64,000 bases of DNA. It comes from Onthophagus taurus. Taxonomy: Eukaryota; Arthropoda; Insecta; Coleoptera; Scarabaeidae. The position numbers were made by a program, and so were the translations under genes. The notes under the pieces were generated by a model. That model had not been told where the DNA came from. It made no database searches and saw only the letters and a program-made list of their open reading frames with translations. The stretch spans positions 3,102,501 through 3,166,500 of the forward strand of contig NC_091975.1 of the NCBI RefSeq assembly GCF_036711975.1, read 5' to 3'. This document shows positions 21,061 through 42,436 of this stretch, one piece after another. Each line of letters opens with the position of its first letter. Positions within the stretch are counted from its first letter, which is position 1.

Positions 21061-23070
21061 TATGTATTCGAATGTATTATCACTATAGCAACGTTAACTT
21101 TTAAATAAATACAGTGCATCCGTAAAGTAGCGGATATAGACGATAAAATCAATATACACAGTTTATGGAAAAATCTCTGAAACGGGTCTAAAGATATACA
21201 CTTTTTTCTTAATGTAGTATATTCAATGTTAATATTGGTTACATAAGAAAATTTTCGAGAGAAATTACTTAAAAGTGTAACTACTTCAAATTTGCTTGAC
21301 ATGATAAAAATAGCAGTAGCCATGAGTTGCTATGGTAACCAATTATTTGAAACAGTTTCGTAAGTATCAAAAACTGATTTAGTAAGTAATTAACCTCTTT
21401 AATGCAACATATTCTGATCGCTAACTCATTAGCCAAAGTATGGTGAGCCTAGCTGTGACTAAATTTAAAAAGCATGGGCAAAAATGTTTCAGGGGACATT
21501 CAACAAAACGTGATTTTGGCTGAGCAAAAAACTTTCATGTTACTGTAAAGCAGTCTCTCCCAAAGTGGGCTATAGTTTTCCCATCACCTATGCGAATAGC
21601 AGCAAAGTGAATATTACAGCATGAAACAGTATAATACCATTGGTGGAGAACTTGCGATCTTAATGAAATGAAATTTACTGTATGCAAAATTTTATAAAAA
21701 CTCAGTTACGCCATCTATAAATGAAATAGTTAAACATTAATAATTTTTAATGTTTGTTTTACAGCGTTCTTCTTCAATTGTTTTGGTTTAATTCTCAACT
21801 AAAGATCAACAATTTTTTATAAAAATGTTTAAAAAATATTTTTTTTAATTTAAAAAAACATCTAATATACCATTTTAAATTCGTTTTTCTATTAATTGTT
21901 AATTTTAGCGATAATTAAACATTTATTGTGTTCGTTTTAATTCGGTTAACTTTTCCAAGGCACCAACGAAACGCAACGGTCGGAGTTTTCCACCGAAACG
22001 AAGCTCTCCAGTACCTTTTCTGCGATACTTGCGCGTGGTGGTCGCGAAAATTGTCCTTTTAAAACTATTTTACTCAAATCCGATATTAAAAGTCAACCGG
22101 ATTTTAATTATTTTTTATTAGAAATCGAAAAACTTTAATTTATAATTTCATAAAAGGATATTTTTGTAATAACATTAATTTTTACAGTGCATCAAAATTA
22201 AAAAGAAACAAGTTTCAGGTACTACATTTAAATTTTTTTTAATTGCAAATTAATTCAAATAATTAAAACAACTTTATTATTAAACAATTTTGATTATATT
22301 TTTTTCGTTTTGAAATTAGGAACACAATCGATCGTAATTTCGCGTTATCGTACGTGATTATAATTTGAATTATTGATGTGAAAACAATTTGTTAGTTAAT
22401 GATCTTTTCGCCTTGATTTCCTTTAAAATTAAATCTTTAATTAAATAAGAAAATTTTTCGCCTAGATAGCCCGGAGAGTAATAGATGTCGAGATGAAGCC
22501 TTGAACTCTCTTAAAATAAAATGTGCAGGTTTCACTTTTCCTGCCAACGGATGCATTGCATACTTTTACGTAACAAAAACTAAATGGAACATGATACTAC
22601 TTAGCTTCCTTTAAATCAAATCAATCAAATAAAATAATAAATATTAATGTAAAACTCCTAATTGTTTCGATCTTGGCCCTAAATAAGCGATGATACGGTT
22701 AATTAAGAGTACTTTGCTCCGGTCACGATTAAGTGGTTCCAATTTGACGATATTAGATGGTTGTTGGAAGAAATATTTTTTAAAAATTTAATCAAAAAAT
22801 ATAAATTATGCAAAAATAAATACCCATTTCCAGGTATGATTATTGTCGCGCCAGAAATGATGTAACTAACTCAACTGTGGTCGCTTAGGTCATGGGTTGT
22901 TGTGTAAAAAGAACGCGTATTATTATTACAACGTAGTGAGTCATTAAAAACAATCGTCATTTTTAACAAGGTTTCTTTACACCAATAGTTTTTTGAAATT
23001 CCGAACCTGTTGATAAGAATTTATATTTAAACGTAAGTTCATATAATAATTAATATTTTTGATTTTATAG
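21061..23070. other. Intergenic; 5' flank of desaturase A
   Basis: No gene recognised. The part nearest desaturase A ends in a good splice acceptor (GATTTTATAG, to 23070) 23 bp before the start codon, which suggests a 5' leader intron as is common in insect desaturase genes. The matching donor and promoter were not fixed. Confidence 0.45.
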
Positions 23071-23093
23071 AAAGTCTATTATAAGAAGTAAAA

Positions 23094-25860
23094 ATGACCG
23101 AGGATGAAGACATTAAAATGATTAAATATAAAAAAGAAAATGAATGTTATGGAAATACTTGTAACAATGAATTTGTGTCAAGAATTAGATGGCCTGATTT
23201 GCTAGTTCAAATTTTTATCCATGTTGGGTGTTTGTATGGATTGTATTTGTGTATTGTAGCCGCTAGATTTTATACTGTGATGTTCGGTAAGTTTTTAAAC
23301 CCCTCCCCATATTCATCAAATAAATATAAATCACGATTGGAAAATGGAAGAAAAACAAGTCACGCAACGTGTACTAATTAAAATTATTTATTCAAAAGCA
23401 CTAATGATACGAAACACAACGGAAAATTGTTTCTAGAAATTTCCTTAATTAATACCACGACAATTATTAAACGGATATTTTCATTTCTTTAAAAGGGTTC
23501 ATTAACGAAAGTATTTACAAACAGAAAACTTATTATCACCCACATTTCATCCAACCCCTCGTCAAAATCAATATTCCGACACAATTTTCCACTTCTTCTT
23601 TTTTTGTACGTCCTTAATACACACCGAGTGGTTTTTGTTATGTTGTTCATTAAAACGTAAACGGGGTCGTAAAAAGTGCACGCATACATCGATCGTTTTT
23701 TTTTCATTAACTACAATTAAAAACATTTTAATGCTGAATAACAACTAAAACTTACACTATCCTGGTCACCACTTCAACTTCACTGGAAGTAGTCATATCA
23801 TATCATTTGATTTTTTGAAAATTTCATATCATTTTTGATTTATAAATTTGACAATTTCTTCTTTAATAATTTTGTCCTGGGCATTTCAATAATATTATCT
23901 TATATCATAAACTAGAATCTTTAAGCTAGACTAATAACATATGAATGTGATTGATTGACCACCCTGTATTATTGATTAATGTAGATTGACCAATATAACT
24001 AATTACGTTCTATTTATGAACATTACTACGTCTCTTAAGACGTCTAAACTTGAATGTTTCTAGTTCTGCAAAAGTATAGAATATAGCTAGTAAATACGCC
24101 ATTTGTGATTTAAATGAAAAATGTTTCAAATAAAAGTTTCCTGGTTAACTATGGCGGATAATCTGGCTATATTTGTGTGCTTGTATTGTTCTTAGTTTGG
24201 TAACCAACCGTGCTATGTAACCAATTTTGAGAGTGTTCAAGAACAACCTCAAAATTCCCTCAGAAATCTGAGCCGAGATATGGGAATATCTTTTGCTTTA
24301 TCATGTGCAAAAACAAGTCCTTTAAACTATTAAACTAAAATTAGAACTAAAACTAGAACTAACACTCCTTTAAACTAAACCTAGAACTAACATTTGCACT
24401 AGAATTAACACTAGATTTACCTAGACCTGAATATTTCTAGTGTTAGGTTTAATGTTACTTCTAGTTTTAGTTAACTAATAGTAAACCAATTTTCCACTTT
24501 TCTTTTTTTTGTCTTTAAGAGTCAGCGAGTAATTTTCGTTATGTTGTCCATTAAAACGTAAAAGGGGTCGTAAAAAGTGCACGCACGCATCGATCGCTTT
24601 TTCATTACGTTATCGAACCGTTTCCATGAAGGAATTTTAGCTTATCCAACGATATAGACGTCGCAAATATTTACTGACAGCGACCTAAATATCCTTTAGA
24701 AACGTTCCTTCTCTTTTTCTCATCTTAAAAAAGGATGTTTTATCATAATCATGGGAAAGGCAATTTCCTTTAAGTCTTTTTTGTTTTTTTTTTTGTAGCT
24801 ATTTGCACAATTTATACATCCGGTTTTGGTATAACAGCCGGAGTTCATAGGTTATGGTCACATAGGGCTTACAAAGCTAAATGGCCCCTTCGTTTATTGC
24901 TAGTCCTTTTATTTACAATAACTGGTCAAGTAAGAATTAAATTAAATTTCTTTTTTGTCTAAAATATTAATTTTACGATTTTTTTAGAGACACGTTTATA
25001 TCTGGGCTTTAGATCATCGCGTTCACCACAAATACAGCGAAACGGACGCCGATCCTCATAATGCGAAAAGAGGGTTTTTATTTTCGCACGTCGGATGGTT
25101 AGTTTTAACTCCTCACCCGGATGTTGTTGCGAAAAGAAAAGTCGTCGATATGAGCGATCTCGAAGAAGACTCAATAGTTATGTGGCAGAAAAAGTAAATA
25201 CTATAGACCTTCTTAAACATTTATTTATTGATACTTTATTGTTTGGAATCTTAGGTATTATCCAATCTTATTTTTTATCTTCACCATTGCTTTACCAGTT
25301 GGTTTACCAATTTATTGTTGGAATGAAACGTTATGGAATTCGTTTTGGATCAATTTTAACTTGCGTTTTTGTATTACGTTAAACATAGCTTTTTTTGTGA
25401 ATAGTGTGGCTCATATGTGGGGACAAAAACCTTATGATAAGTAAGTACAAGTCTTAGAACTTAATGATTTGATTTGTAGACAACAAATACATTAACAGTA
25501 ATTTTTTGTATACAAAAAAAAATTAATATTTCATAATATTTTAGAAATATAAGTCCAGTTGAAAATTTGGCTGTTTCAATAGCAGCTTTAGGTGAAGGCT
25601 GGCATAATTACCATCACGTATTTCCATGGGATTACAAAACGGGTGAACTGGGTGTTAAATATAACCCATCGACGTATTTCATTAATTTTTTTGCTCGGTT
25701 GGGATGGGCATACGATTTAAAAAGTGTCTCCCCCGAAATGATTTATAGAAGGGCGGCAAAATCGGGCGACGGGAGTTTTATTTGGGGATACGGCGATGGC
25801 GATATCGCCAAAGAAGATTTGGAGGAATTAGAAATGATGAATAATAATCATTTGGATTAA
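23094..25860 (+). CDS. Acyl-CoA delta-9-type desaturase A (complete, 343 aa)
   Basis: Five exons: 23094-23286, 24799-24929, 24988-25193, 25255-25440 and 25545-25860. They join in frame and encode 343 residues. The product is an ER-membrane fatty acyl-CoA desaturase that uses a di-iron centre, cytochrome b5 and O2 to place a double bond in fatty acyl-CoA. Histidine boxes are complete: HRLWSH (81-86), HRVHH (118-122) and HNYHH (259-263), plus the ligand His in NSVAHMWG. Hydrophobic membrane pairs flank them, as in the family. The third intron is only 61 bp (25194-25254) and starts with what would otherwise be an in-frame TAA, so the gene can be misread as broken; removing the intron restores the conserved YYP segment. 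A polyadenylation signal AATAAA lies at 26030. Desaturase B starts about 345 bp downstream on the same strand. Substrate chain length and position cannot be told from the sequence. Confidence 0.93.
23579..23713 (+). repeat. First copy of ~125 bp direct repeat in desaturase A intron 1
   Basis: Matches 24492-24612 in direct orientation, best over ATTAAAACGTAAANGGGGTCG and AAAAAGTGCACGCA followed by CATCGATCG. The two copies enclose about 780 bp of unrelated AT-rich sequence within intron 1 (23287-24798). Confidence 0.75.
24340..24480. repeat. CTAGAACTAAC-type motif cluster
   Basis: A run of degenerate CTAGAACTAAC and CTAGTTTTAGTT words in both orientations inside desaturase A intron 1. The same motif family occurs near 18428, 29425 and 46240-46390, so it is likely part of a dispersed element. 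Confidence 0.55.
24492..24612 (+). repeat. Second copy of ~125 bp direct repeat in desaturase A intron 1
   Basis: Partner of 23579-23713. The word GGGGTCGTAAAAAGTGCACG is identical in both copies. It lies about 190 bp upstream of exon 2. Confidence 0.75.
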
Positions 25861-26204
25861 AAACGTCGTATTATTGAGATGGTACATACTTTTTAATTGT
25901 TGCATCACGTGCCTAAAGTGTAATTAAACTAATTAATAATAACAGTATTTACTTTGTATTTTTGATATAATACGCTGAAGCTTTTTGTAAGTGATTATTA
26001 AAGAGAAATGTATTTATTTGTGAATGTGAAATAAATTGTTGAACGTTTTAATTAAATTCTTTTTCTCCTTTTGTTTTTGACCTTTAACTTTTCGTATTTC
26101 CATTGAATAGAAATTTTTGCCCTAGAAGTATTTGCTACACAGGATATTTTAATATCATTCTGATTCGTGCAACGTCAACCTACGCATCAAATTTAAAAAA
26201 AAAA

Positions 26205-27262
26205 ATGGAAGATAAAAAATTTTTAAGAAAAGAAAGTGATTGGCCCGTTGTTTTGTTATATTTATATTTGCATTTTTCAATCGTTCTTTGTCCCTTTTTA
26301 TTAGATGAAGCGATGATTTCTACTTATCTTTTCGGTAAGTCATTTCTTTGATTTCGCTAATTATGATTCAATAATTTTTTTTTAGGGGCCTTATTAACGT
26401 TTTTAGGATTACTAGGCACAACTGTAGGCGCCCACAGATTATGGGCTCATAAAACGTTCGTTGCAAACAAAAAATTAAAAATTTTCCTCATGATTTGTCA
26501 CACAATAAGTGGACAAGGAACCATTTATAACTGGGTTTTACAACATCGCCTTCACCACAAATATTTCAACACCCATTTAGATCCTTTTAATAACACTAAA
26601 AGTTTTTTACATCTTCAAACTGTTACGCGAACTTTAAAACCGGCGGGTGGTTATGAAACGATTAAATCTGAAGTTGAAACTGAAGATTTAGACAACGATT
26701 GCGTCGTTATGTTCCAAAAAAAATATTATTGGATTATGTATCCGATTTTGGTGCTTTTATTGCCGGTTAATGCGCCGGCTGAGTATTGGGGGGAAGGATT
26801 AATAAATAGCTTTATTATTATTGGGGTTATTAGATACTTAATTGGTTGCCATTTGAGTTCGTTCATCGAAACTAGCGCTAAATTAAATATTTGTGAACCT
26901 ATTGAAAAGTAAAATTGATCACTTTGTTAATTTAGCTCTACATTAAAAGTTTTTTTGTTTCCAGGAATAATGATAAAGCGTTATTAAACATTATTGAGAA
27001 TCATAAATGGGCTACATATCACTATTTAGCACCTTGGGATTACCAAAGTGGCGAATTTGGTTATTATGGAAACGATATTTTTTCGAAATGTATTAGGCTT
27101 TGTGAGAATTTCGGTTTAGCAGAAGGTTTAAAAACATTAGACCGAAAAACCATCGGTCAAGCTTTACAAATCGCCAAAGAAACCAATAAACCAGTCGCCG
27201 AGTGTTTAATGGATTCGCAATTCATTGATGTTAAACATTCACAATTTAGGCGATCTCATTAG
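26205..27262 (+). CDS. Divergent desaturase-like protein B (316 aa, iron ligands lost)
   Basis: Three exons: 26205-26334, 26386-26908 and 26965-27262, joining in frame to 316 residues. The first and last splice sites fall at the same codon phases as in desaturases A and C, so it is a paralogue; the introns within the middle part of A and C are absent. Box 1 (HRLWAH, 60-65) and box 2 (HRLHH, 97-101) are kept. Box 3, normally WHNYHH, reads WATYHY (233-238), losing two of three histidines. The extra ligand region, normally NSVAHMWG, reads ETSAKLNI (Lys209 in place of His). The conserved DPHN segment is DPFN. A normal di-iron centre therefore seems impossible. The frame is fully open with intact splice sites and an AATAAA at 27298, which argues against a simple pseudogene. 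A non-catalytic or altered membrane protein is inferred; its role is unknown. Confidence 0.88.
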
Positions 27263-27425
27263 AAAAAACTTCACTCTTGCTTTATCGAATGGGGAATAAT
27301 AAAAATATTTCATAGAAAATACCAATCGTTTTATTTTTATATCTGTTATTATAATTCAATGGTGATTAAACTATTTAAAGAACTGAAAATGCTTATAGAC
27401 GGTCTAATTAATTTGTTACAACATA

Positions 27426-28238
27426 CAGAGTGATTCACATAAGAACCGACACAGAGCAGGGACATGGAGAAGACAATAAATTAAGATGATTTAACGCAAC
27501 TTATCTCTGTACTAAGTTGTACCCCTGAGGAGTTATAGACCTTCAAAGTTGGGTCTTAAATTTTTAAAACATTCAATATCTTCATAATACATTAAGCTAG
27601 AAAAACCAAATTTGGTATACGTTATGAGTGCACCGAGGGTATTAATTGGTAGCAAGTTGAGACCAATTGAGGCATTTCAAAGGGTTGATTAAGGGTGACG
27701 GTCCCCTAAATTTTGACAGATTTTTTAACCTTTTGGTGGATTTAATACATTATTACCTCATTTGTAGGTTATAAAGTTATTAACCTATTTGTCAAGTTTG
27801 ACGTACAATTTCATAGCCAACTACTGAATTTTCGCTTATTTTAAGTAACTTTTCGAAATACGAAGCTTTAGTTATTTAAGTTTTTTATGAAAACGACAAA
27901 GTTTTTTAAAAAATAATAAGAGTAAGAAAAGTTTTAGAATTAAATTCCACATGAAATGAAGTAATAATGTATTAAATCCGCCAAAAGATTAAGAAAATCC
28001 CTTTGAAATGCCTCAATTGAGTTCAATTTGCTACCAATTAATACCCTTGGTACACAAATATGGTTTTTCTAGCTTAATGTATTACAAAGATATTGAACTT
28101 TTTAAAAATTTAAGAGCCAACTTTGAAGGCTTATAACTCCTCAGGTGTACAACTTAGTATAGAGGTAAGTTGCGTTAAATCATCTTAATTTACTTGTCCT
28201 CTACATGCTCTGTGTCGGTTCTTATGTGAATCACCCTG
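27426..28238. mobile_element. Fold-back MITE with long inverted arms, TA target duplication
   Basis: The two ends are long inverted repeats: 27426 onward (CAGAGTGATTCACATAAGAA...) pairs with the reverse complement of the sequence ending at 28238 (...GAATCACCCTG). The arms are about 290-345 bp with roughly 85-90 percent pairing by eye and leave a short unpaired middle. A TA dinucleotide flanks each side (27424-27425 and 28239-28240), which is the target duplication of Tc1/mariner-type elements. No transposase frame is present. It lies between desaturase B and the 3' end of PA2G4. Confidence 0.88.
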
Positions 28239-28461
28239 TATAACAAAATAAAGATAAATTCTACAACCTGACGTTTATAAAAATTAATTAATTTTATTTT
28301 CTAATTGTTAACAAAAAATTTATTAATTATGTTTATTTTATCCTAATCAATTCTTTTTTAAATAAAACGAAATGAATCCAAAAATAATGTTTTACAGAAA
28401 ATTGTCCGTTTTTATAAAACCATCCAATTTCAGCTTAACACGATAAAAAATATTTATAGCA

Positions 28462-31400
28462 TTAAGCAGCCGCTTCAACTTCCATCGGTTGTGGCTCCGT
28501 TACTGCTTCACCCTTCTTTTTTTTCTTTTTCGCCGCCTTCGGATTCGCCGAGCTGTTCAATAACGATTTAACATCTTGGTCCGTAATCGAATACTCGGAT
28601 TGACACAGTTCGGGCTCAAACGGCAAACCTGTTATCTTATGAGGACCGTTCGGCATTAACAAAACCGTAAATTTAAATTGAGCGACCAATTCACCTATTT
28701 CAAAACAATAAATTATTGTCATATTCATAATTTTGATTTAAAATACAGGTGTTCCTGTAAGTCATGGCATCATTTCAATCACAAATACTAGAGTTAACCC
28801 TTAACCACTGATGCTGATGTGGAGTCTCAGAGACTTTAACAGGCAAGTTTAATGTTAAATATAAATCGATCGAAAATGCACGTGTATATATATATACAAG
28901 AGGTGTGTCAAATGTCTGGAATATAGCCAATAACTTCGCCATGATTGTAAAGAAAAATATTTCAAATAAAAAATTCTTTATTAATTAATTTTCACAAAAA
29001 AAAACATGACGTTTCATTAAATTGACATTTAATTTTTTGTTTTTAAACCAGGAGGAGTATTTTAAATTTGTCAGCAGATTGACCTTGCACGTGATTGGTT
29101 GAATGCGAGGAAGGTTCACACACAGGCAATTTTGAATTTGAAGGTTAGGTAATTGATAATTCGACAGTTTCGTGTCATTATTGTATATTTTGTGTTCTTA
29201 AACCCTTTTTTATTATATTTTGAAATAAATACACTCATAACTTCAATGTTAATTTGTATGTATAGTGCTGACGATAACAAACGAAAATAAATACAATAAG
29301 TAAATAAATAATAATTATTAATTTAAATTTACCGCCAAAATATCTAGTGATATTTTCTGGTGATTTTTTCCAGTGTAAATCTGACTTTCGCGTTTACTCC
29401 TCCTGGTTTAAAAACAGAGTATAGTTCTAGTGCAAGTGTTAATTCTAGTTTTAATTGTTATTCAGCGCTAAGTTGTATATTTTTAAGTTTCGTGTTTAGC
29501 CCTGTGTCTTCAGACGCTGAATGTTAGGTAAGGTTAGTTTTGTTTACAAACATTAATTATACCATGAAGTATTCTTTGGCAATTTGTAATGGCAATTATA
29601 GCGTGAAGTTTTCTTTTGTAATGTCAATTACAGCGTGAAGGAATGTTCGGTAAGGTTAGTTTTGTTTACAAACATTAATTATACCATGAAGTTTTCTTTG
29701 GCAATTAGTAATGGCAATTATAGTGTGAAGTTTTCTTTTGTAATGTCAATTATAGCGTGAAGGAATGTGAGGTAAGGTTAGTTTTGTTTACAAACATTAA
29801 TTATACCATGATGTTTTCTTTGGCAATTAGTAATGGCAATTATAGCGTGAAGTTTTCTTTTGTAATGTCAATTATAGCGTGAAGGAATGTTAGGTAAGGT
29901 TAGTTTTGTTTACAAACATTAATTATAGTTCGTTTTTTTTTCTATAATACTTGTCAATGTAAATTTTTTAGGGTTTCTGTTGGTATTACCTAAGACCCTT
30001 ATAAAATTTATATTGTTTTCCTGAGTTTTAGTAACATTTTCAGTAAGTAAATAGTTGAGGTTAAAATACTAATAAATTTTTAGATAAATACGATTTAACA
30101 AAGTAAAATTAATTAGAATTAAATAGAACAAAACACCTTTTCTAGGTAAATAAATGGCAAATAAACGCCCCACAACATTTTTTAAGCACCTTTTTTTTGA
30201 ATAACGAAAGCTAAAACGTCAGTGTGACATATTTATTTCAAAACATGATAAAACAAAACTCCCTGTTAGTTTTGCCAACTTTACAACAATTTGGCAGGTA
30301 TTATAGAAAAAAAATGAACTATATACCTTGAAGATTTCTTTGGCATTATAATTATTGTGAAGTTAGTTACAGTTGGTAACATTGAATTTGTGTCACATTG
30401 ACGTTTAAACTTTATTCAAAAATTTGTTTAAAAAAATAAATTTATGGGATCAATTTTAATAGTAATTGTGCAGTAGTATTTCAGGACAAGGTTGTATAAT
30501 AATATGATGAATAACTCTAAAACGATACGTGTAATCAAAAATTTCTAAGAGTGAAAATCATTTTAGAATGAAATAGGCTTTTAGAATCAGTTGGAAATTT
30601 TAAGGGTTTACAACATTATAAAAAAGTTCTAAGGAAATAACCTTTGTGGACACTGTAAAGTGATCTTAAACGATTTCTCATGATAACATTGCATTGTTTG
30701 CCAAATTTTATCTTTCTAAGACAAACCATGTTGAAAATATTTAAGAAAATGTTTAATAATTTTTAAACTTTGGCATTTATGGGCCATTACACGAATCGCC
30801 ATCGTTTTAATTCTAGTATTTGCGATTAAAATTATGCCACAACGGACAGAAACACCTGTATATTTAATTTAATTTTATATTTACCCGTTTTTTCATAAAG
30901 CACTTGAAACGGTTCGATCAATTTATGATTAACACATTCGACAACGCCCAATTTCGCCTTAGTTTCTTCCTCGAAACTTCTCAAATTGAACGGCATATTT
31001 CCGTGCTTCGTCCTAACGGCCGAATAAAACATCCTCGATGCTTTCAATTTTAATTGATAAACTTCGTCGGTTTTTTTATAAATTGAAACTCTCGCGTCAG
31101 CTTCTTTTCCGACCCCTTCTCCAGTACTAACCAAAACATCCATCGCATAAACTTCGTGTTTATCGAATTCAAACTCTTCGTGTTCTTTCCTTTGAGCATC
31201 GCTCGGATTTTGAATAATCGTCTTTTCACCGTTGATTTTGAACTGTTTCAGTTGATGACTTAACATACCTTCAATTGGTTTACATTTAAACGATTCTGCG
31301 ACAGTTTGAATGACATCGGTGACTGCGTATGAATCATGGCCGGGTTTTAAGAGTCGTAATGCGGCCTGAGAGGCGTAATGTGCAGCTGTGATACAATCAG

Positions 31401-32199
31401 CTTTTCTTCCCGTGACTTTATTATCTGTTGAGGCACCCAAAACTATTGTATGTGCTACTACGGCAATGAAACCGTCGATGTGAGCACCTAAATCACTGGA
31501 TTAAAAACAAAAAAAATTTTATAATCAAAATTATCTTATCAAAATTTTGAAAATAATAAAATTAATTATATTCAGATTGTCATTTCTTCAATGTTTTTAT
31601 TCAGTTGGATCAATTGGAGTTAAAAAATCATCATAAAAATTTTAATTTTTTTAGGTTATGACAACTTAACCTAAAATGTCAACTACCCCTTTGACAGCTC
31701 ATTTTTTTTAATACTTACACTTTACATAAATCTTCATCTTTTAATGTATAGTCAGGTTCGCTTGGTACAGGCGAAAAATGACAAATGCAATTATTAACAG
31801 AGATACACGTGGGAAAAGCAATTCCCTTTTTGAGGTCCTTTTCCTTCTTAAAAACCTTGCTGGTTTCATCCAGAAGGAGACGATCGCCAAATTCGCATAT
31901 TTCGCGAACGGAAGCCCCCACGACGCACTTGTCAATAACCTGCTTGAGGACCCCTGCAAATGTGATTTGTTCATATAATGAAAACACGCATGTACTTGGA
32001 ACTAGATAACCACATGGTTTCTCGTAAAACCGGGTTAAGACCATATGGTTTTTCGGAGACGTTTAATTTTAATTCGGCGACATTAACTAACGTAAGGGTT
32101 ATAAAACTCACTGTTAACGATCTCCCCAGCCATTTTATACTTGGTTACGACCAAGTCTTCGGCGATGGTCTTCTCAATCACATCTTTGTCCTCCGCCAT
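28462..32199 (-). CDS. PA2G4: PA2G4/EBP1 homologue (methionine-aminopeptidase-like), 388 aa
   Basis: Minus-strand exons 32199-32112, 31953-31719, 31495-30885 and 28694-28462 join in frame to 388 residues (human PA2G4 is 394). The N-terminus has [15 protein letters not shown] and the mid-part has [63 protein letters not shown] and [10 protein letters not shown]-like [11 protein letters not shown]. The C-terminal exon has [20 protein letters not shown] and a lysine-rich tail ([10 protein letters not shown]). PA2G4 has the pita-bread fold of methionine aminopeptidases without enzyme activity. It binds RNA and ribosomal particles and acts in nucleolus and cytoplasm in growth control. MIC13 lies 280 bp upstream on the same strand. 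Intron 3 (30884-28695) is 2.2 kb and carries a MITE and a 122 bp tandem array. No anomaly was seen in the coding part. Confidence 0.95.
29040..29414. mobile_element. 375 bp MITE with perfect 20 bp terminal inverted repeats
   Basis: The ends TTTTTAAACCAGGAGGAGTA (29040-29059) and its exact reverse complement (29395-29414) bound a non-coding AT-rich interior. The outermost TTTAAA is itself palindromic, so the target-site duplication could be that word and the true ends may begin at CCAGGAGGAGTA. It lies within PA2G4 intron 3. Confidence 0.82.
29521..29930. repeat. Tandem array, ~3.3 copies of a 122 bp unit
   Basis: The word GGTAAGGTTAGTTTTGTTTA recurs with copies starting at 29521, 29643, 29765 and 29887, a constant 122 bp period with very few differences. 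Each unit holds three related sub-blocks built on AATTATANCRTGAAG, so the unit itself grew from a shorter repeat. The array follows the MITE at 29040-29414 inside PA2G4 intron 3. Confidence 0.9.
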
Positions 32200-32478
32200 T
32201 GCAACAACGTTGTGATCACGTGACAGATTTTGGTAACCTAAAAAGACACGACGCGGTTATGTGGTTTTAAAACGAAATATCCCTAGATTTCTTACTATTT
32301 TATTTTAAATTATGTATATTTATTTATGGTAATAATTATTGTAACTCTTTATTATTGCAAATCGATTCATACTTTAATTAATTTAAAAAAAATGACAATT
32401 GAAACTTAACCTAAATTTTTCTTCAACTTGATTTATTTACTTCATTTATTATTCACAAACAAATCTATATTAACATAA

Positions 32479-33017
32479 TTATTTTTTTTCTATTTCAGGA
32501 GTTCCACTAAACCCATCCATAAGTTTTTTCATCTCTTCGTTACCCTTAATAGCATCAATACCCGATTTCGTTAATTTGGTAACGTTTTGGGGTAAATCTC
32601 CTATATAAATAAAAGTAGCTGTGACACCATGGTTCCAATATTGTTTCATTAAGTACGATATTCTTCCAGTACTTGGAAGCTCGGGAATTTCAATAGGAAG
32701 TTGAGCTTGGGCTTGTTTCATGTAGGGGCATAAGAAATCGTTGATTTTGTTGTACAACTTGGTGGTTTCCTTGCTTTCTTTCCACACACCTTGATCGGAA
32801 ACGTAATATACAGCTGCCCCCGCTAATCCACACTTAATAGCGAACCTACAAATCAATAAATTAATATTTTTCTAACTTATAACTAATTTTATTGATACGG
32901 GAGTTTTAATAAGGTATTATGAAGAAATTTCATGATTTTTAACAAAAAGCCCTTACAAACGTCAGGTTGATGCCGAAAAAGGTTGCTTTGGTTTTGTTTC
33001 TTTATTTACCTGAACAT
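32479..33017 (-). CDS. MIC13: MICOS subunit MIC13 (QIL1) homologue, 124 aa
   Basis: Two minus-strand exons, 33017-33010 (only 8 coding bases: ATG, TTC and two bases of the third codon) and 32845-32479, join to 124 residues starting MFRFAIKCGLAGAAVYYVSD. A single N-terminal hydrophobic segment is followed by IPELPSTGRISYLMKQYWNHGV, resembling the IPQLP...WN-G segment of MIC13/QIL1. MIC13 is a small inner-membrane subunit of the mitochondrial MICOS complex and helps link the MIC10 arm to the core at cristae junctions. Length matches the family (about 118-125). The tiny first coding exon is supported by a GTAAAT donor and a GATTTGTAG acceptor, and by restoration of the conserved N-terminus. PA2G4 follows downstream on the same strand. 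Confidence 0.87.
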
Positions 33018-33384
33018 TTTGTTAAAAATTGATGTTTAATTTTGCGTTAATTTAATTTCTAGGTTAGAAGAAAGGTGTGTTGCGTAATAGATAGATGGAG
33101 CCACTAAAAAGGTAAATAAAGCGGGATTATTTAAATTAAAAAAAAATTTATTTACATCTACTACAAAAAAAAACATATCTTATTAATTAATCTAAGTTAT
33201 TAATAATAAAAACTAATAATAATAACAAACATTATATTTAGGATGTTAAACATTCACAAATTTTTTTTAGACCGAATTTGTGAATATTACAACCTTTGAA
33301 ATGATATATTTACAATTAAAAACAAAAAGAATTAGCGTAAAGTAAATTTTTTAACTTTACTATAGTTTTTATTGTGTTTTCTTT

Positions 33385-35444
33385 TTAATTTCGATTTTTA
33401 TTCGGTCTGGATGGTATGGGTAAAGCACCGGGTGGTAAATTAAATTCTGGCTTCACTCCTTGCGGTAAATTTTGTTCTCCATCTTCTTCTAGGGGCGCTG
33501 CAGGTGTTGTAGGGACATCGCAATCTTCCGTTGGGGGTACAACACATCTTAACGAACGACGATCAAAAACTAACATGGCAGGACATCTTTGAAGGCGAGG
33601 ATAACCACCTTGACACTGCCAATATCTATTACAAGATTTTCCTAATGGCACATTTCCATTTGCATCATCATTACAAAGTGCTGAAATAATAAGAAAATTA
33701 ACAAAAATTGAGGTAAGTGAGTAACTTTTCATACGATGTTTTTGGCAACCATCAACATTCTCAGGCCAATCGCAAGAATGCGTCTTTTCGTTATATAGAA
33801 GCCCACCGATGCAAAGTTGTTCAGTTGCGGTACCATTCCAACAAGTCCAATATCGCGTACAAGAAGTTTCGTGTCCGAAAATTCCGTATAACCAATCACA
33901 ATGATCCGTGCCGATTGGAGGATCTATATTTCATTGGGGTGATTAAATTTTGTATTAGATTTGTTATTTGAACTTACTGGCTTGTTGTTTTCCATCGCAA
34001 TAATTTGCTCTCCATGGATAATCACATCCTTCAGTAACACCGCGATTCTTTCCTGCATATACTAAACCATTCGGGCAATCATAAAGTTCTGGTTGACCGT
34101 TTACACATTCCCAATATCGGTCACAATATGTTAAATCAGGAACTACACGTGATTTTGCTTTACACGCATCTTCTTGTTGTTGGCTAGATATAATACCTTG
34201 AAAAAAAAATGGGAGACTAAGCCTATTTTCGTTCAAGAGTTGTGAAGTTGCAAACAGTTCTGGACATTTCTGCGCATACATACAGTATGCAATATGTATG
34301 CCCAGAAGAAGTCTTGAATCAAAATGATAAACGTTGTAAAAAGAGGCCAAAAAACAAAGCTGTTCTAAAATTCCTATGTATTAGTTAGTGTTTTTGTAAA
34401 AACCCTTTAAATACTTTCACTTCCTGTGTAAAATCTTTAACGGTGGTTTTATAAGATTTTGAAACACAATAACTTAATTAAAATGTTTATTACATAACGA
34501 TTACGTACAGGATGCAAATTTAAATCTTTTATCCTTCCTGTTTTTGAGCAATTAGTGTTAAAATCCATGACCTAACAAACTTAACAAGCAATTCTTTTGT
34601 GTTTTTATAAAATTATCCTTTTGGCTTTCCGCCAAAGGGATTTTAATTAATTATTTAGTTGATTTTCATTTATTTATGAGACATGAACCTGACCCAAGAG
34701 ACCTTTTACCTTCACTGACCACACAATTTATAATACGTATCAATCGTGACCATCAGGTCCATGAGAGCGACTCGAGATTCCTTCCCACATCCTTTTTGTA
34801 GACTTTTTTCGTATCCTTGAGAAAACAACGCCAGTTTCCCATATAAGAACGAAAGAACTATCGTGGGAGCGATTAAATTTACGTAACCGAATAGTTACAT
34901 CGAGGTGGTAAAAAATACCAAAATGAATAAAAAAAGAAAATAATAGGAAATCTTTTTCACACTTTCTCTAACAAATAAAACGTCTAAACGGAGAAATAAA
35001 TATTAGATAATTAGAAATCATATTTATTTGAATAATTTAAGTTAATTTAACGTAATAAACTCGATCTCTTTGGTTATGTAAGATTATTCAAGCTTAAAAA
35101 AGATGCATACTTAGCGAGATTTCGCTATCTTCTCGTTGTGGAACTCGAGACGAGAGAGTTCCAAGAAGTACTTTCACTTTAACTTTCTATGAATTAATCA
35201 ATTTGTAGCGTTGAGAGTTACTCTAACTGGTTTTGGTGATATTTTATGGAAAAAATAATCTCCATTCAATTTTGAATCAGAAACCAGAATAAAGGGTAAA
35301 AGGAATTTGACCTTGTTCGTGTTTATATAACTTCTAAATATCTTTAAAGATGATCTTTGAATTTTTAGAAATGAAGATATTTCTTTAAATATAAAAATAC
35401 TCACCTAATAAACTTAAAAGGATTATTAACCCAAAATGTTTCAT
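33385..35444 (-). CDS. Secreted three-domain chitin-binding protein (obstructor/CPAP3-like), 247 aa
   Basis: Minus-strand exons 35444-35405, 34196-33978, 33923-33735 and 33680-33385 join in frame to 247 residues. The first exon gives a signal peptide (MKHFGLIILLSLLG). Three peritrophin-A (ChtBD2, CBM14) modules follow with six cysteines each: first YCDRYWECVNGQPELYDCP, second HETSCTRYWTCWNGTATEQLC, third KSCNRYWQCQGGYPRLQRC. A proline-rich tail ends the protein. This layout is that of cuticular proteins analogous to peritrophins with three domains, which bind chitin in the cuticle or tracheal lining. I could not assign it to a particular obstructor letter. The last intron is only 54 bp (33681-33734) and is open in frame with exon 4, so exon 4 alone can look like a separate gene with a signal peptide; the joined model gives the full third domain. 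Intron 1 is 1.2 kb. Confidence 0.88.
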
Positions 35445-37873
35445 TTTGTTTGATTACACAAGAAAAAGTTTTTTTAATTTAATAAAAATTAATTAATATT
35501 TTTTCAAGTTAACGCACAAACTGTTGAACACACCTCTTCCTGTCTTGAACTGAACGACTACAGAACGTTTCTTTTCCTTTTTATTAAATACTTAACCTAT
35601 AGGAGGGGACCAACGTATGTCCTCTCCTGTTGGGTTTCAGAATCGACTCGAAAGTATAATTTCCACTCGAAATCACATTTAAAACGAAACTACCCAAGTA
35701 TTTAAAACATTTAATTAACAACGAGTGAATCCGAACATAAAATTTCTGCAATTTTCAAGGCTATTAGTTTGCACGTTCTGATTGATTAAAATAATTTTAT
35801 ATTTTTTTTTAAATTGTTAATTAAGAAAAAAAAAAGTTCAAGATCTAAACTAATCCTTGAACATCTTTGCTAAGAATTTAAATAAAAAAGACTCTAGACC
35901 ATGAACTTTAACATTTTCTAAGCAATATTTTAACGTGAAGTTTTTTTAAACGGTAAATTATTGATGCATCCTTTTATTGAATGCTAATGATTGCGTACGT
36001 GTATTGAATGAATAATTGAACAAAAATCCGTTATCGTAATTCAATGTTAAGGACCTTTAAACTAATCCAAAGAATTCGTATTAAATTAATGTTGCGATAT
36101 GTTTAACTAAATACAAAAAAAAGAAAGCTCAATTTCTCTTTAAACGCACCACCTTCACGAAAGCAATCGCAGTTAATTGACTTTAAATAGTCGTTTAGAG
36201 TAAAATTAATTAGAAATTAGTTTACAGATATCTTAAATATTATCTAATGTACTACAAGCAAAGTTCTTTCGAAAGTAACCGCGTCCTCATTCACAGATGA
36301 TTCTAAATCCAATTAAAAACTTATTTTCTATTGTATTTTTATTATCAAGATCGCCCCTTTTTTAACATTAATCCTTGTTTTTATTGTGTAATTAATTGTT
36401 ACATGGACGTTTCTTCTTTTACTACAAATTTTAAATCCTAATGACGACAGCAAACTTTAAAAAGCATAGAAAGCTCTAAATTGCCAAATTTAGCAATTTC
36501 AGAATTGAAGAAGACAGAATTCCAAAATACTTAAATATTGCGTTTTTGACATTAAATCCGGTTATCACACAAGAAGTAGGAATGATTTGTTATAATCAAA
36601 AAAACATGTTAAATGATCTTGTAAAACACGATCATGAAGATATATAAAACAGGATTGATTATTACCAACTCAAAAGGCATAGAAAGCTCTAAATTCCAAA
36701 ATTTGAACGATTTTAACAACAAAATAGAACATAACTCAAAAAGTAATAATTATGGAACAATTAGTTATTACCAAAAAACATTGCCAATTAATCCAAAAAT
36801 TATAATCCATAAAGCGAATTAACCCAACATGGATTATTCGCAACTTAGAACAGATAGAATTCCAAAATAATCAAACATTGCGATTTTGACATCAAATCCG
36901 GTTATAACTCAAGAACTAAAAGCGACGGATGTTCCTAGTTCTAAGTAATGCTCCAATACCTTAGAAAGGCAAGATACTTATAAGACCCAAATCCTCAAAA
37001 CTTAACGTTTTTTATGTATTTAGGATGTATTTAGGATATTTTAGGATGTTTTCAACATCCAGACAATTTAGTTTTCTAGATAACTTCTAATTCCATTTGA
37101 TTATAGTTAAATCTGATAATAATTCCATAATTTTATTAAAAGCCGTTTTTTTTTAGAAAAACCGATGTTGAATCATCGATGAGTTGTTTCCGAAGGTCAA
37201 CTTTCATTCGAAATTTAACAGATTACACAAACATTTATGCATTTATATCAGATAAGAACCAAAAATTCGCAGACGCTGCAGAATTCATTTCCAAGTCTAG
37301 CGACGTTTTTATATCAGTCTTCGTAACATGGCGTTAGATGGCTCCAAAATTGTCCGCCGAGACATAACTGTAAACGCTGTAAACCATTTTAGTCCAATTT
37401 TAGTCGACGATCAGGTGATTGCGGACTGGTCAAATAAAAACGTTGCCAATTGCCGGTCTTTTTTAATCCACGTGGTTAGTGCGGCTACGTGTACAGTTGA
37501 AGGAGTCAATCCATTTACGTTTTAGACTTCTTTAGCAATAACACGTCGTAAATTAAACTAAGCATTAAAAAATCTTAATTTGTTGTAGATTTTTGTAGTC
37601 GATTTTAAATCACCAATTGTAAGTATAATTTTTTCTGGGGTAAATACTTATTGCGTAAGTGAAATCTAAAATTAAAAGAAAGAATTTTAAATCACCAATA
37701 AATTTGTTGTTTATTCTGATTTATATTTAATTAAGTAATTTTGTTGTTTGCATAACTTGGCTTTTGTGTTAAACTAAGTCTAAAAATAAACTAAAAGTAC
37801 AATTAAATAACGTTCGCATTACGTTTTTAATGTCACGTCTATATTTTTTTTATTTAATTTAACTTGATTCTAG
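35445..37873. other. Intergenic; 5' flanks of the chitin-binding gene and desaturase C
   Basis: No protein gene recognised. Two 60 bp blocks, 36517-36576 and 36857-36916, are close direct copies 340 bp apart (shared AATCCGGTTAT and AGAATTCCAAAATA), and the word CATAGAAAGCTCTAAATT also occurs twice (about 36463 and 36678). A tandem TTTAGGATG stretch lies at about 37018-37050. A possible untranslated leader exon of desaturase C spans about 37314-37618. Confidence 0.5.
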
Positions 37874-37897
37874 AAGCTTTGAAGAAAATATATCAAA
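37314..37897 (+). promoter_or_regulatory. Possible promoter and 5' leader intron of desaturase C
   Basis: An arthropod initiator-like TCAGTC sits at about 37312-37317. A strong donor (ATT then GTAAGTATAA) starts at 37619 and a good acceptor (TTGATTCTAG) ends at 37873, 24 bp before the desaturase start codon. This would give a 255 bp leader intron, a common arrangement in insect desaturase genes. The proposed leader contains an open frame of 66 codons at 37328-37525 that matches nothing I know; it could be an upstream ORF or chance. This is inference only. Confidence 0.35.
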
Positions 37898-39368
37898 ATG
37901 CCACCGAATGAAACAGGAGTTTTACACGAAACTGATATAGTTGATACTCAAAATGTTAATATTAATAATCATGAGACGAAACCAAGAGAGTACAAATACG
38001 TTTGGAGGAACATTATCTTATATATTTACCTTCACGTTGTCTCTTTTTATGGGGTTTATGTTTTGTTTACTTCGGCCAAATTTTTAACTATTATTTTAGG
38101 TAAATAAAAAATAATTAGTTAAATTTTTACCAAACTGTTTTTTAATTTAGGATTTATTCTTCTAAACATGGGAAATTTGGGAATAACTTGCGGCGCACAT
38201 CGTCTTTGGTCTCACAAATCGTACAAAGCTAAAACTCCCTTGAAAATTCTTTTAGTCATCATGCAAACTTTAGCTTTTCAGGTATATTTTCCCATATTTC
38301 TGGTGGTTTTTACGACCCTCAGAAACAGTAGTAGTAGTACCTGGACGTGATTTATGATAGGCCCTCCTTTATTACTTTATGATAGCGAACTAGGTCCAGG
38401 GACACACTTCTTTATTTATTTTAAGTTTTTGTAATTTCCGTTAATGCGGACCTGAACAACTCACGCCAGAGTTTGGGGTTCGTAAACTACCTGTTTACAA
38501 CTCCATGGGTGTTCGTTATGTGACTGCTATTATATCATAAAAACCACCACAAATATTGGACACTATAAAAAATATCTTGTTTTCTATTTAATTAAAATTT
38601 TAGAATTCTGCTATTGAATGGGCTCGTGATCATCGCGTTCACCATAAATTTAGTGAAACAGATGCAGATCCACACAATGCAACACGTGGCTTCTTCTTTT
38701 CGCACGTTGGTTGGCTTTTAACTCGTCGTCATCCCGATGTAAAAGAAAAGGGGAAAGGCGTTGATATTTCCGATTTAACATCGGATCCAATTTTAAGATT
38801 CCAACAAAAACATTATGTTCCATTAATGATTTTTACCAGTTTTGTCCTTCCAACTGTTCTCCCCATGTATTTATGGAATGAAGGATTTGTAAACGCTTGG
38901 GTTTTGAATTTATTACGTTATTGTTTAGGTCTTAATATTACATGGTTGGTTAATTCAGTTGCCCATATGTTTGGGGATAAACCATACGACAAGTAAGATA
39001 ATAATATCTAATTTTTGTGGTATAAATAATATTGATGTGTAAATTATAGGTTTATTAATCCGGGTGAAAACTTTAGTGTTGCTCTTTTGGCTTTGGGCGA
39101 AGGTTGGCATAATTATCATCACACCTTCCCATGGGATTATAAAACGTCAGAATTAGGAAAATACAGCACCAATATGTCTACATTATTCATCGATTTTATG
39201 GCAAAAATTGGTTGGGCTTACGATTTAAAAACAGTCTCAGAAGATATGATTAAAAAAAGGGTTAAAAGGACCGGAGATGGTACCCACAATCTTTGGGGAT
39301 GGACTGATAAAGATATGCCAAAAGAAGATATTCAAGATGCTATTACTTTGAATAAAAAGTGTGATTAG
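37898..39368 (+). CDS. Acyl-CoA delta-9-type desaturase C (complete, 346 aa)
   Basis: Four exons, 37898-38099, 38151-38281, 38604-38992 and 39050-39368, join in frame to 346 residues. All catalytic features of a membrane fatty acyl-CoA desaturase are present: HRLWSH (84-89), HRVHHKFSETDADPHN (box 2, histidines 121-125), NSVAHMFG and WHNYHH (histidines 261-265), together with the family signature GEGWHNYHHTFPWDYK. Splice positions match those of desaturase A except that A has one additional short intron in the middle exon. It is expected to sit in the ER membrane and desaturate saturated acyl-CoAs for membrane lipid, storage lipid, cuticular hydrocarbon or pheromone use; which one cannot be told. 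A poly-A signal AATAAA lies at 39428. Intron 2 carries a 257 bp MITE. The chitin-binding gene, MIC13 and PA2G4 on the opposite strand separate it from desaturases A and B. Confidence 0.95.
38297..38553. mobile_element. 257 bp MITE in desaturase C intron 2
   Basis: The ends TTTCTGGTGGTTTTTACGA and the reverse complement of TCATAAAAACCACCACAAA form imperfect ~19 bp terminal inverted repeats (two mismatches). A TA lies on each side (38295-38296 and 38554-38555), fitting a Tc1/mariner-type target duplication. It fills most of the 322 bp intron. Confidence 0.82.
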
Positions 39369-39592
39369 ATTTGTTATCAGATATGAAAATAATTAGTATT
39401 CTTAATTTATTTTAAATCATCCTTATAAATAAACAGGTCTTATTTATGAATAAAAGTCAACTAAATCAAGCTAAATCAACTTTTTAGTAGTCCCTTAATG
39501 TTCCTATTCTTATTTACGATCAAAAGGATCCGTCCATACTTTCATATCTAAAAATTAACAATTATAAAACTAAATTTTGAATATTTTTAACA

Positions 39593-39826
39593 TTAATATT
39601 TACTTCCTGGTTGGATATCTTCCTGTCGAATACCTTTCCGTGTTTCTTTTTGAATCTTTTCTAAACACGAAGAAATTGACATATTTTTTAAGACTGTTTC
39701 TTAATACTTACTGTATTCATCAATATTCATCATAGGATAGATTACAATCGGATAAATTGCTATTGCTATACCTCCTATTAAACCACACATTACCCCAACA
39801 AATTTAAGATTTTTTATTATTACCAT
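39593..39826 (-). CDS. SMIM20: SMIM20/MITRAC7-like mitochondrial micro-protein, 60 aa
   Basis: Minus-strand exons 39826-39712 and 39660-39593 join in frame across a 51 bp intron (GTAAGT donor, GTGTTTAG acceptor) to give 60 residues. One transmembrane segment (FVGVMCGLIGGIAIAIYPIV) is followed by YPMMNIDEYKKIQKETRKGI and QEDIQPGSKY. This matches the SMIM20/MITRAC7 pattern (GG at the helix, YPI--RPLM-LEEYKK-Q, then QEDVQP). In vertebrates this inner-membrane protein stabilises newly made COX1 during cytochrome c oxidase assembly. The protein is slightly shorter at the C-terminus than the human form (67). The gene lies tail-to-tail with desaturase C, about 225 bp apart. Each exon is too short to be found by a simple open-frame scan. 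Confidence 0.85.
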
Positions 39827-41164
39827 TTTTTTAGGTTATCTTTGAGGTTATGTTGATATATTTAATAAAAATTGCAGTTACATAATCTCGACTTATTTTG
39901 AAAATTATTTATATATATGATTCTAAAAGTAATTAATTGTATTAAAAATTAATATTACGATTAAAATGATTTATTTTAACAATTAGTTAAAAAAGTTTTT
40001 TAATTTTAATTGTAGAAATAAAACAGAAATCTGTAAACTGTGTACAACTATCGAACTAACGATAAAGCAACACATTTCACCTGAGTGAATAATAGCTCAT
40101 TATATGTGAGTAGAATACTATACTTTGTCCACTACTATTGAAATTGATACCATAAATTTATTTTTTTAAATAAATTTTTGATAATGTTTAAATATCAATA
40201 TGACACAAATTCAATGTTGCTAACTGTAACCAACTTCACAACTATTTGTCAATATTAAATGTCAATTTTATGAAACATCATGTCTTTTTTAATGTCAAAC
40301 CTTTAGAAAGTCCTAAAAAAATTAAATTAAATTGACGTTTTTTTTAAATTTTGGCGTTTCAAATAATTATTATAGTCTGTCAAATTGATTACCCGTGAAT
40401 AATGATTCACTCTGTGAAAAATGACTACCCTTTTGTTTGAGAAAACTCATTTATAAGGTATATATTATAAGGTAGTCGTGGACAAAAGTATTTTTTCAAG
40501 GTACAAAATACGAAGGAACTGATATGACTTTATTATGACGCCCTCCAAAGGCTTAGGACAGATCTAGGCCCTTGATGAACCTTAGTATTATTCCAAAGTT
40601 TTGTTCCTTTATGTCAATGGGTGAACCTTTCCGAAAATTTTGTGTTTGAGACGTCCAATGTTGAAGAGCTGCTAATTTAGGGACGTCTCAGGAAACCAGA
40701 GAGCAACCATAACTCCCCTTTTGTGTTCAAAATGATGCAGAAGTTTATGGCAAGAACTTCAACCTAAAGAATGGTTATCACGGAGCTTAAGAGCATCTTA
40801 ATACAGTTTTTTGGTCCTCTGATCCCAACTCCGGATTCAACTATCTTTGAAGAATCAGTACCAAACTAGGACTTCTCTTTTGAGTTGAGGCTCATCCTTC
40901 ATCAAATCATCCCTGCTTCTAAACATAACCTTATGGCTGTCGTAGCTTTCTTTTCCGAGTGAGACTATTTCTACTTTGTTTGGGTTTATCTGCAGCAGGT
41001 GTAAATAGTAGAGCTTTTTGTATTAATTGGGTGACCCCATAATAATATATCAAAGTTTAGATCAAATGAAATTTAGCACACATTCACAAAATTTGACATA
41101 AAATTTCAAAATCATAAAATTTATTATTTTTCTTTATTTCACTTTGTCATATACGAAAAAAAAA
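39827..41164. other. Intergenic between SMIM20 and succinyl-CoA ligase
   Basis: No gene recognised. The segment 40199-40243 is a reverse-complement copy of 30358-30402 (shared word ATGACACAAATTCAATG or close to it), so it is part of a dispersed repeat. Positions 40540-41000 are less AT-rich and could be decayed transposon sequence, but I could not name a domain. Confidence 0.4.
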
Positions 41165-42436
41165 ATGTTTTATCCCCTCATAAAACTTAATTTCGCCACA
41201 AATATTCATCAAACGTTTCAAAAATCGGTTCGAAATTTAAGCTTGATGGAATACCAAAGTAAACAAATTTTAAAAGGTGAAGGATTAAAGATGAGCGAGT
41301 TTATAACGATCGATCAAGTTAAGGGTTATAAAGACTTTGAGAACTTTTTGTCTGAGCGTTATGTTGTGAAGGCTCAAGTGGCGGCCGGAGGACGTGGTTT
41401 GGGTTATTTTAAAGATGGATTGAAGGGCGGCGTTCAAGTGACAACGAATAAAGATCAGGCGAGGGATTTTATAAAACAAATGTTGGGGCACAATTTGATT
41501 ACGAAACAAACGTCTAAAAATGGGCTTAGAGTGAGAACGGTTATGGTTGAGCAAGCGGCGACTGTTTCTAAAGAAGCTTATTTTAGTTACGTTTTGAATC
41601 CTCAATTTAAAGATCCGATTATGATGATATGCCCGGCTGGAGGAGTCGATGTTGAAACGATAACGAAACAAAATCCTTCGTTGATGAGAAAAATTCCGGT
41701 TGATATTTGCAAAGGGTTTAGTTATGAACAAGCGGGTGAATATGCCGATTTTTTCCGATTCAAAAGAATGAATTACCCCCAATTAATTGATGTCATGCAA
41801 AAATTATGGCGTCTTTTTAAAAAGTACGATATGATGCAACTAGAAATAAATCCTTTGGCCGAAACTAACGATAATAAAATACAAATTTTAGACGCTAAAT
41901 TTACAATCGATAATAACGCCGAATTTAGACATAAAGATTTATTTAAACCGGATCCGGAAACACATCCAAACGAATTAGAAGCAGTGCAGTTTGGTATGCA
42001 TTATATCCAGTTAGATGGAAACATCGGATGTATGGTAAATGGGGCTGGTTTAGCAATGGCTACAATGGATCTTATTAAAACTCATGGTGGCGAGCCAGCT
42101 AATTTCTTAGACGTCTCCGGTGGCGTAACAGAATCCGGAATTTATAACGCATTTAAAATTTTGGGAAAATCAAGACAGGTTAAAGTAATTTTGGTGAACA
42201 TTTTCGGTGGAATTGTTGATTGCGCAATGATTGCTAAAGGAATAGTTAAAGCAACGGAAATTATTAAAGTCCCTTTGGTAGTACGCTTAGAAGGAACCCA
42301 TGCAGATGAAGCAAGAGAAATCATTAAAAGCGCACATTTTCCTATCGATAGCACCGATAGTTTTGAACAGGCCGCTTTAAAAGCTGTTGTTCATGCTAAA
42401 AAAAGTAGTTATCGTAAGAAAGAAGACAAAAAGTGA
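41165..42436 (+). CDS. SUCLG2: Succinyl-CoA ligase beta subunit, GDP-forming type, intronless (423 aa)
   Basis: A single uninterrupted frame of 423 residues from ATG at 41165. The N-terminus is rich in basic and hydroxylated residues with almost no acids, fitting a mitochondrial transit peptide, and the mature part begins near LMEYQSKQILKGEGLKM. The ATP-grasp and CoA-ligase regions are present (VVKAQVAAGGRGLG; LKGGVQV; QLEINPLAET and DAKF, the metal-binding Asn and Asp; GNIGCMVNGAGLAMATMDL; VILVNIFGGIVDCAMIAKGI; VPLVVRLEGT). It pairs with an alpha subunit to make or use succinyl-CoA in the citric acid cycle. Wording is closer to the G-beta than the A-beta subunit. Odd points are GRGLG where GRGKG is usual, FLDVSGGV for FLDxGGG, and IVDCA for IVNCA. 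The lack of introns suggests a retroposed paralogue, perhaps tissue-restricted. Antisense frames are shadows. Confidence 0.9.
   Translation: MFYPLIKLNFATNIHQTFQKSVRNLSLMEYQSKQILKGEGLKMSEFITIDQVKGYKDFENFLSERYVVKAQVAAGGRGLGYFKDGLKGGVQVTTNKDQARDFIKQMLGHNLITKQTSKNGLRVRTVMVEQAATVSKEAYFSYVLNPQFKDPIMMICPAGGVDVETITKQNPSLMRKIPVDICKGFSYEQAGEYADFFRFKRMNYPQLIDVMQKLWRLFKKYDMMQLEINPLAETNDNKIQILDAKFTIDNNAEFRHKDLFKPDPETHPNELEAVQFGMHYIQLDGNIGCMVNGAGLAMATMDLIKTHGGEPANFLDVSGGVTESGIYNAFKILGKSRQVKVILVNIFGGIVDCAMIAKGIVKATEIIKVPLVVRLEGTHADEAREIIKSAHFPIDSTDSFEQAALKAVVHAKKSSYRKKEDKK

Follow-up and report, generated by a model that had tools for sequence, protein, structure and literature searches.

Organization of the locus

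The window, a stretch of 64,000 nucleotides, carries desaturase A, gene B, and desaturase C in this order on the forward strand. Desaturase A (positions 23094–25860) consists of five exons (23094–23286, 24799–24929, 24988–25193, 25255–25440, and 25545–25860), and desaturase C (37898–39368), which served as a comparison gene, of four (37898–38099, 38151–38281, 38604–38992, and 39050–39368); both contain all ten active-site positions described below. Gene B (26205–27262, forward strand) starts 344 bases past the stop codon of desaturase A and ends approximately 10.6 kb short of desaturase C, and its three exons join into an open frame of 316 amino acids plus a stop codon. Exon 1 (26205–26334) contains the start codon, the N-terminus, and the first hydrophobic region; exon 2 (26386–26908) encodes box 1 (GAHRLWAH), box 2 (QHRLHHK, followed by DPFN), and ETSAK in the place of NSxxH; and exon 3 (26965–27262) encodes KWATYHYLAPWDY in the place of GWHNYHHxFPWDY, the C-terminus, and the stop codon. 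The start codon lies in a good context, with A at −3 and G at +4, both pairs of splice sites are intact (TCG/gtaagt...tttttttttag/GGG and AAA/gtaaaa...tttccag/GAA), and the first AATAAA 3′ of the stop codon, at 27298–27303, provides a poly-A signal. Gene B has two introns, compared with three in desaturase C and four in desaturase A, and the exon lengths place them in codon phases 1 and 2, the phases of the first and last introns of A and C. An earlier note on this DNA had described a three-exon open frame with good splice sites and a poly-A signal, all of which were verified from the sequence. The broken frame or damaged splice sites by which a pseudogene is recognized are thus absent from gene B.

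Other features of the window and the genome were recorded in the course of this analysis. A palindromic repeat element at 27423–28241, about 160 bases past gene B, has outer arms of 36 nt that are 97% complementary and at least 121 matches in the genome, a count for which the best 40 of 678 candidates were scored; the element resembles a short inverted-repeat transposon. One long intronless open frame on the forward strand (41102–42436) matches ATP-grasp_2 and Ligase_CoA, as succinyl-CoA ligase beta does, and could be a retrocopy. An exact match to the telomere repeat (TCAGG)5 was found nowhere in the genome, (TTAGG)5 occurred at one internal site on contig C3, and neither was present at the contig ends.

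Relationship of gene B to the first desaturases

The best solved relative of the gene B product in a phmmer search was stearoyl-CoA desaturase SCD1, which aligned over query residues 10–281 of 316 (PDB 4ymk, E 7.5e-38) and 10–274 (PDB 4zyo, E 2.9e-37), and with which it shares the box 1 and box 2 histidines and a similar hydropathy pattern. The hydropathy profile of B correlated with that of the family at r 0.845, the lowest value among the 16 aligned rows (others, 0.894–0.971); because the profile still tracks that of the family, the protein is probably still seated in the membrane. The match to the Pfam family PF00487 reached 20.9 bits, below the gathering cut-off of 29.7, while desaturase A scored 56.1 bits. 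The codon usage of gene B matched that of the family (r 0.83; range across 14 genes, 0.67–0.87). Judged by the SCD1 alignments, gene B is a full-length acyl-CoA (first) desaturase relative by descent.

The possibility that exons of gene B had been missed was rejected, as none were found in a scan of both strands of positions 23000–40000. HNYHH occurred there only in exons of desaturases A and C, and the looser patterns [HQ]xxHH or NSxxH gave five matches (29822 on the reverse strand; 33657, 34253, 38245, and 38536 on the forward strand), all without desaturase context.

To place gene B among its paralogues, the 290.8-Mb genome (33 contigs, with the window on contig C10) was searched with PF00487, B, and C. 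These searches gave at least 14 modeled first desaturases and one relic, the count being a lower bound because only the best candidates were scored; among those candidates, neither a second copy of B nor another gene with the same losses was seen. Desaturases A and C were modeled by hand and with a spliced aligner, and 11 further paralogues with the spliced aligner alone, with C as the query (A for C itself). Some models are imperfect: the N-terminus is missing from c3_5966k, as are nine residues before box 2 from c10_3568k; the first exon of c10_11849k is uncertain; and c10_3579k contains seven X from the masking of a neighboring prediction. Left outside the count were a weak first-exon-like match at C10:11840832–11840993 and PF00487 matches on contigs C5, C15 (two), and C16, which scored under 150 in the aligner with a first-desaturase query.

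Active-site positions of gene B

The 14 first desaturases of this genome were aligned with segments of mouse and human SCD1 (16 rows in total), and the ten active-site positions were taken from the SCD1 list in the text of PMC8533217, which gives 127 in place of the 157 of the motif. At these positions B reads HHHHH-EK-AHY, while all the other 15 rows read HHHHH-NH-HHH, corresponding, in human SCD1 numbering, to the substitutions N265E, H269K, H298A, and H302Y. The calls were identical under five alignment settings (the first and four further MAFFT settings). N265, one of the listed positions, is the asparagine at the Fe2 water position of SCD1. Gene B thus retains six of the nine histidine ligands, and neither the full set of nine nor the asparagine expected of a functional di-iron desaturase is present; it is the sole ligand-loser among the 14 first desaturases modeled, of at least 14 in the genome. 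Invariant residues around box 3 that are not ligands (G294, E295, G296, N299, and F304) are changed as well.

The motifs ETSAKLNI, WATYHY, and DPFN, together with intact box 1 and box 2 histidines, were confirmed in B as the earlier note had described them, and two of the meanings it gave them require qualification. Its description of the di-iron site as dismantled holds for the ligands that are lost (N265, H269, H298, and H302), but it is too broad, because the losses are one-sided: six of the nine histidines stay, including all five that are assigned below to Fe1, one half of the center. The change from DPHN to DPFN is likewise present, but it has little bearing on the metal site, because the histidine of DPHN is absent from the ten positions listed in the text of PMC8533217 and because the paralogue c10_11849k (contig C10, near 11849 kb) has DPYN instead of DPHN, yet retains all ten active-site positions.

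We also examined the eight residues that contact the acyl-CoA headgroup in human SCD1 (N75, N148, R155, D156, R188, K189, G197, and W262), as given in the text of PMC9825965. None of the eight is identical in B, which reads V G L Q K P K S, although R188K is a conservative change. Desaturase A keeps only one of the eight (D156; D R L D T P R F) with seven changed, whereas the other 12 paralogues differ at 0–3 of these positions, gaps aside. Desaturase A may thus use a lipid substrate that carries a different headgroup.

Assignment of the lost ligands to the two irons

According to the text of PMC10359943, Fe1 of SCD1 is held by five histidines and Fe2 by four, and mouse H265 is on Fe2; from the numbering offset of 4, this residue would correspond to human H269. 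A residue-level split between Fe1 and Fe2 for SCD1 itself was not found in our literature search. In AlkB, as described in the text of PMC10113152, the Fe1 ligands are the two box 1 histidines, the first and third histidines in box 2, and the second of the three in box 3. Fe2 is bound by the second box 2 histidine, the isolated histidine, the first and third histidines in box 3, and a glutamate. AlkB shares with the desaturase family a nine-histidine center (PMC10113152, PMC10110569), and although its fold is different, its site is said in the text of PMC10110569 to resemble that of desaturases. Carried over to SCD1 by motif order despite the differing fold, the AlkB split would assign H120, H125, H157, H161, and H301 to Fe1 and H160, H269, H298, and H302 to Fe2. 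AlkB differs from B in its fold and in having a complete di-iron center, while its glutamate by the four-histidine iron recalls N265E in B (PMC10113152, PMC10110569).

On this split, B keeps five of the five Fe1 histidines and one of the four Fe2 histidines (H160), and N265 is gone too. If three of nine histidines were lost randomly, the chance of an Fe1-only pattern would be 4/84 = 0.048, or 0.024 with N265 counted. The pattern is, however, confounded with position, as every lost residue falls in the second half of the protein, much of which is more diverged; consensus positions were kept at 7/10 in the box 1 region, 3/15 in the NxxxH region, 4/20 in the cap, and 7/13 in box 3 itself. In addition, the ligands of B were retained no better than other invariant columns (6/10 versus 21/38, p = 1.0). 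Because of these weak chance figures, the confounding with position, and the ordinary rate of ligand retention, we regard the Fe1-only pattern in B as suggestive and statistically weak.

Divergence and selection on gene B

To compare the divergence of B with that of its relatives, we counted departures from columns in which all 15 of the remaining rows agree. B departed at 21 of 48 such columns, whereas each other row departed at 0–2 of 27–29, and the end branch of B measured 2.6 changes per column under LG+G4 and 4.8 under a mixture model, compared with 0.07–0.94 for the other rows. The departure of B therefore exceeds ordinary family variation. Neutral drift to this extent in a gene that had lost its function should have disrupted the reading frame; the frame of B is open. 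This expectation was quantified by neutral simulations, in which the coding sequence of desaturase A, as a stand-in for the ancestor, was evolved for every combination of seven distances with three indel rates (0.05–0.15 indels per substitution, 80% of them frame-shifting), with 4,000 replicates each for a total of 84,000. None of the 84,000 combined an open frame with the loss of 21 or more invariant columns, the maximum among open frames being 10, and no open frame was left at 0.1 or more substitutions per site.

A desaturase relic on the minus strand of contig C11 (about 5585270–5586080), some 14 kb from the intact c11_5600k, was excluded from the trees and counts. Between box 2 and NSAAH, in a stretch that corresponds to one exon of c11_5600k, its frame is broken by an in-frame stop and a shift of frame, while box 1, box 2 (HRVHHKYSESDADPH), and NSAAH are still readable; box 3 was not found in the relic. 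Gene B is the reverse of this relic, with its frame retained and its ligands altered. The view that B is a fresh pseudogene was rejected on the neutral simulations and on this contrast.

We further estimated the strength of selection with a codon model fitted to 14 genes over 291 of 375 columns (those filled in at least 10 of the 14 genes and in B) on the topology of the LG+G4 tree. The free model (lnL −10717.54) gave an omega of 0.21 on the B branch and 0.099 in the background. Setting omega on the B branch to 1 lowered the lnL to −10724.33 (6.8 worse), and neutrality was thus rejected, while setting it equal to the background (about 0.10) was 0.8 log units worse (2 × lnL difference, 1.7) and was not rejected. 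The estimate is loosely bounded, with the lnL falling by 1.8 at 0.05, the lowest value tried, and by 2.2 at 0.5, because synonymous sites are saturated. Given this saturation, and because the branch spans periods both before and after the ligands were lost, the estimate is an average that supports constraint on B without dating it. The open frame despite the loss of 21 of 48 invariant columns, together with an omega below 1 on the B branch, bears out the proposal of the earlier note that B was kept for something besides standard desaturation, and argues that B has probably been retained for a job other than its original chemistry.

Evolutionary history

Desaturase A was the row nearest to B in the tree; support for grouping the two was 69 with LG+G4 and 91/84, without a star, with the mixture model. 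The two proteins also have L155 and P189 in common. On these data B is probably the sister of its neighbor, desaturase A, with a placement that is unsure because the B branch is very long. A two-step history fits these observations, in which the common ancestor of A and B changed its headgroup recognition and B then lost Fe2. Gene B would have been born by duplication beside A, in a lineage already without most of the CoA-headgroup contacts, and its Fe2 site would have been lost afterwards through H269K, H298A, H302Y, and N265E. The first step has a parallel in ADS1 of plants, an enzyme that works with other headgroups and, according to the text of PMC5037126, has lost charged CoA contacts.

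Gene B belongs to the same family as the insect first desaturases Desat A1 to E, which were surveyed in 15 species and likewise show clustered genes and lineage-specific copies (PMC4298175). That survey treated a broken frame, short length, or the lack of a recognized domain as marks of a putative pseudogene, and it reports one such gene in Tribolium, in Desat A2; its main text does not contain the word "histidine". Measured against these marks, B is of full length, yet it lies below the Pfam cut-off.

Proposed role of gene B and alternative explanations

Taken together, these data lead us to propose, with a probability of about two in three, that B belongs to the first-desaturase (SCD1-like) family as a pseudoenzyme that has been maintained. 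It has lost an essential catalytic residue, as the equivalent of H269 is essential in mouse SCD1 (PMC10359943), and because the loss of this residue alone abolishes the activity of mouse SCD1, B should be unable to desaturate. Relative to SCD1, it is changed at N265, H269, H298, and H302 and at all eight CoA contacts (PMC9825965). A laboratory counterpart is the mouse SCD1 H265L mutant, which is described in the text of PMC10359943 as stable, with slightly less than one iron, and inactive; it resembles B in the loss of the isolated Fe2 histidine but carries one engineered change, compared with the three Fe2-assigned histidines that B lost naturally. The role of B would likely be non-catalytic and in the membrane, where the protein might partner or compete with a working desaturase or respond to lipid, iron, or oxygen. 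A partner role is possible because crosslinking has suggested dimers and oligomers of SCD1 (cited in PMC8960569).

A changed metal site in B is a live option on the residues that are left. Since all five Fe1-assigned histidines (H120, H125, H157, H161, and H301) are kept, B may hold a single metal. In the emptied Fe2 site, E265 and K269, four residues apart in a stretch that is helical in SCD1, could form a salt bridge. At the sequence level, B has what would be expected of a one-iron derivative on the AlkB split, namely all five Fe1 histidines and a lost Fe2 site of which H160 remains. We therefore consider, tentatively and as a possible but doubtful refinement, that B could be a naturally evolved one-iron member of the desaturase superfamily, with Fe2 removed and its place perhaps filled by E265 and K269, and with Fe1 retained either to sense oxygen, redox state, or iron or to carry out a new one-metal reaction. 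The five-histidine Fe1 site was likened to the heme of P450 by the authors of the AlkB study.

Several explanations other than maintenance as a pseudoenzyme were weighed. The gene might be dying under a long period of weak selection, with its frame held by membrane insertion or a minor trait and without any specific function, as its end branch (2.6–4.8 versus 0.07–0.94 elsewhere) and the retention of just 4/20 and 3/15 consensus positions in the cap and NxxxH regions would allow; we consider this unlikely, since a long phase of low selection should yield stops or frameshifts, no simulated frame was open at 0.1 or more substitutions per site, and the codon usage of B agrees with that of the family (r 0.83). 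A recent pseudogene with a frame still unbroken would be compatible with the score below the Pfam cut-off (20.9 versus 29.7 bits) but is very improbable, given that an open frame with 21 invariant columns lost appeared in 0 of 84,000 neutral simulations and that the C11 relic shows the opposite condition, a frame broken by a stop and a shift while box 1, box 2, and NSAAH are readable.

The remaining two explanations would make B a working enzyme. A second metal site might have been rebuilt from E265, Y302, H160, and perhaps a new H295, with a changed reaction: N265E places a carboxylate where AlkB has one near its four-histidine iron (PMC10113152, PMC10110569), and H302Y and E295H add possible ligands. 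Nevertheless, K269 puts a positive charge in the place of an Fe2 ligand, A298 offers no ligand, and the box 3 surroundings that are invariant elsewhere (G294, E295, G296, N299, and F304) are altered too, so that a rebuilt site appears distinctly unlikely. Alternatively, the first exons of B might be spliced to the canonical last exon of another gene to give an active enzyme, an arrangement that the phase of the last intron, common to A, B, and C, would permit. However, within 23000–40000 HNYHH exists only in A, which lies upstream, and in C, about 10.6 kb downstream and beyond genes on the opposite strand; moreover, positions N265 and H269 are encoded in exon 2 of B itself and would therefore stay lost even with a borrowed last exon. 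We regard such exon sharing as extremely improbable.

Implications

Retained dead enzymes are known in other families. Among the papers listed by our searches of the open-access literature, none pointed to an insect desaturase with these ligand losses or to a pseudoenzyme among membrane desaturases. A gene of the B type, which lies under the Pfam cut-off, falls into a blind spot of surveys that require a recognized domain and would be called a pseudogene there. Among nine histidine mutants of mouse SCD1, only one was stable with enough yield for EPR, according to the text of PMC10359943. If B is expressed and holds one metal, it would represent a natural single-iron version of a center whose irons are hard to separate.
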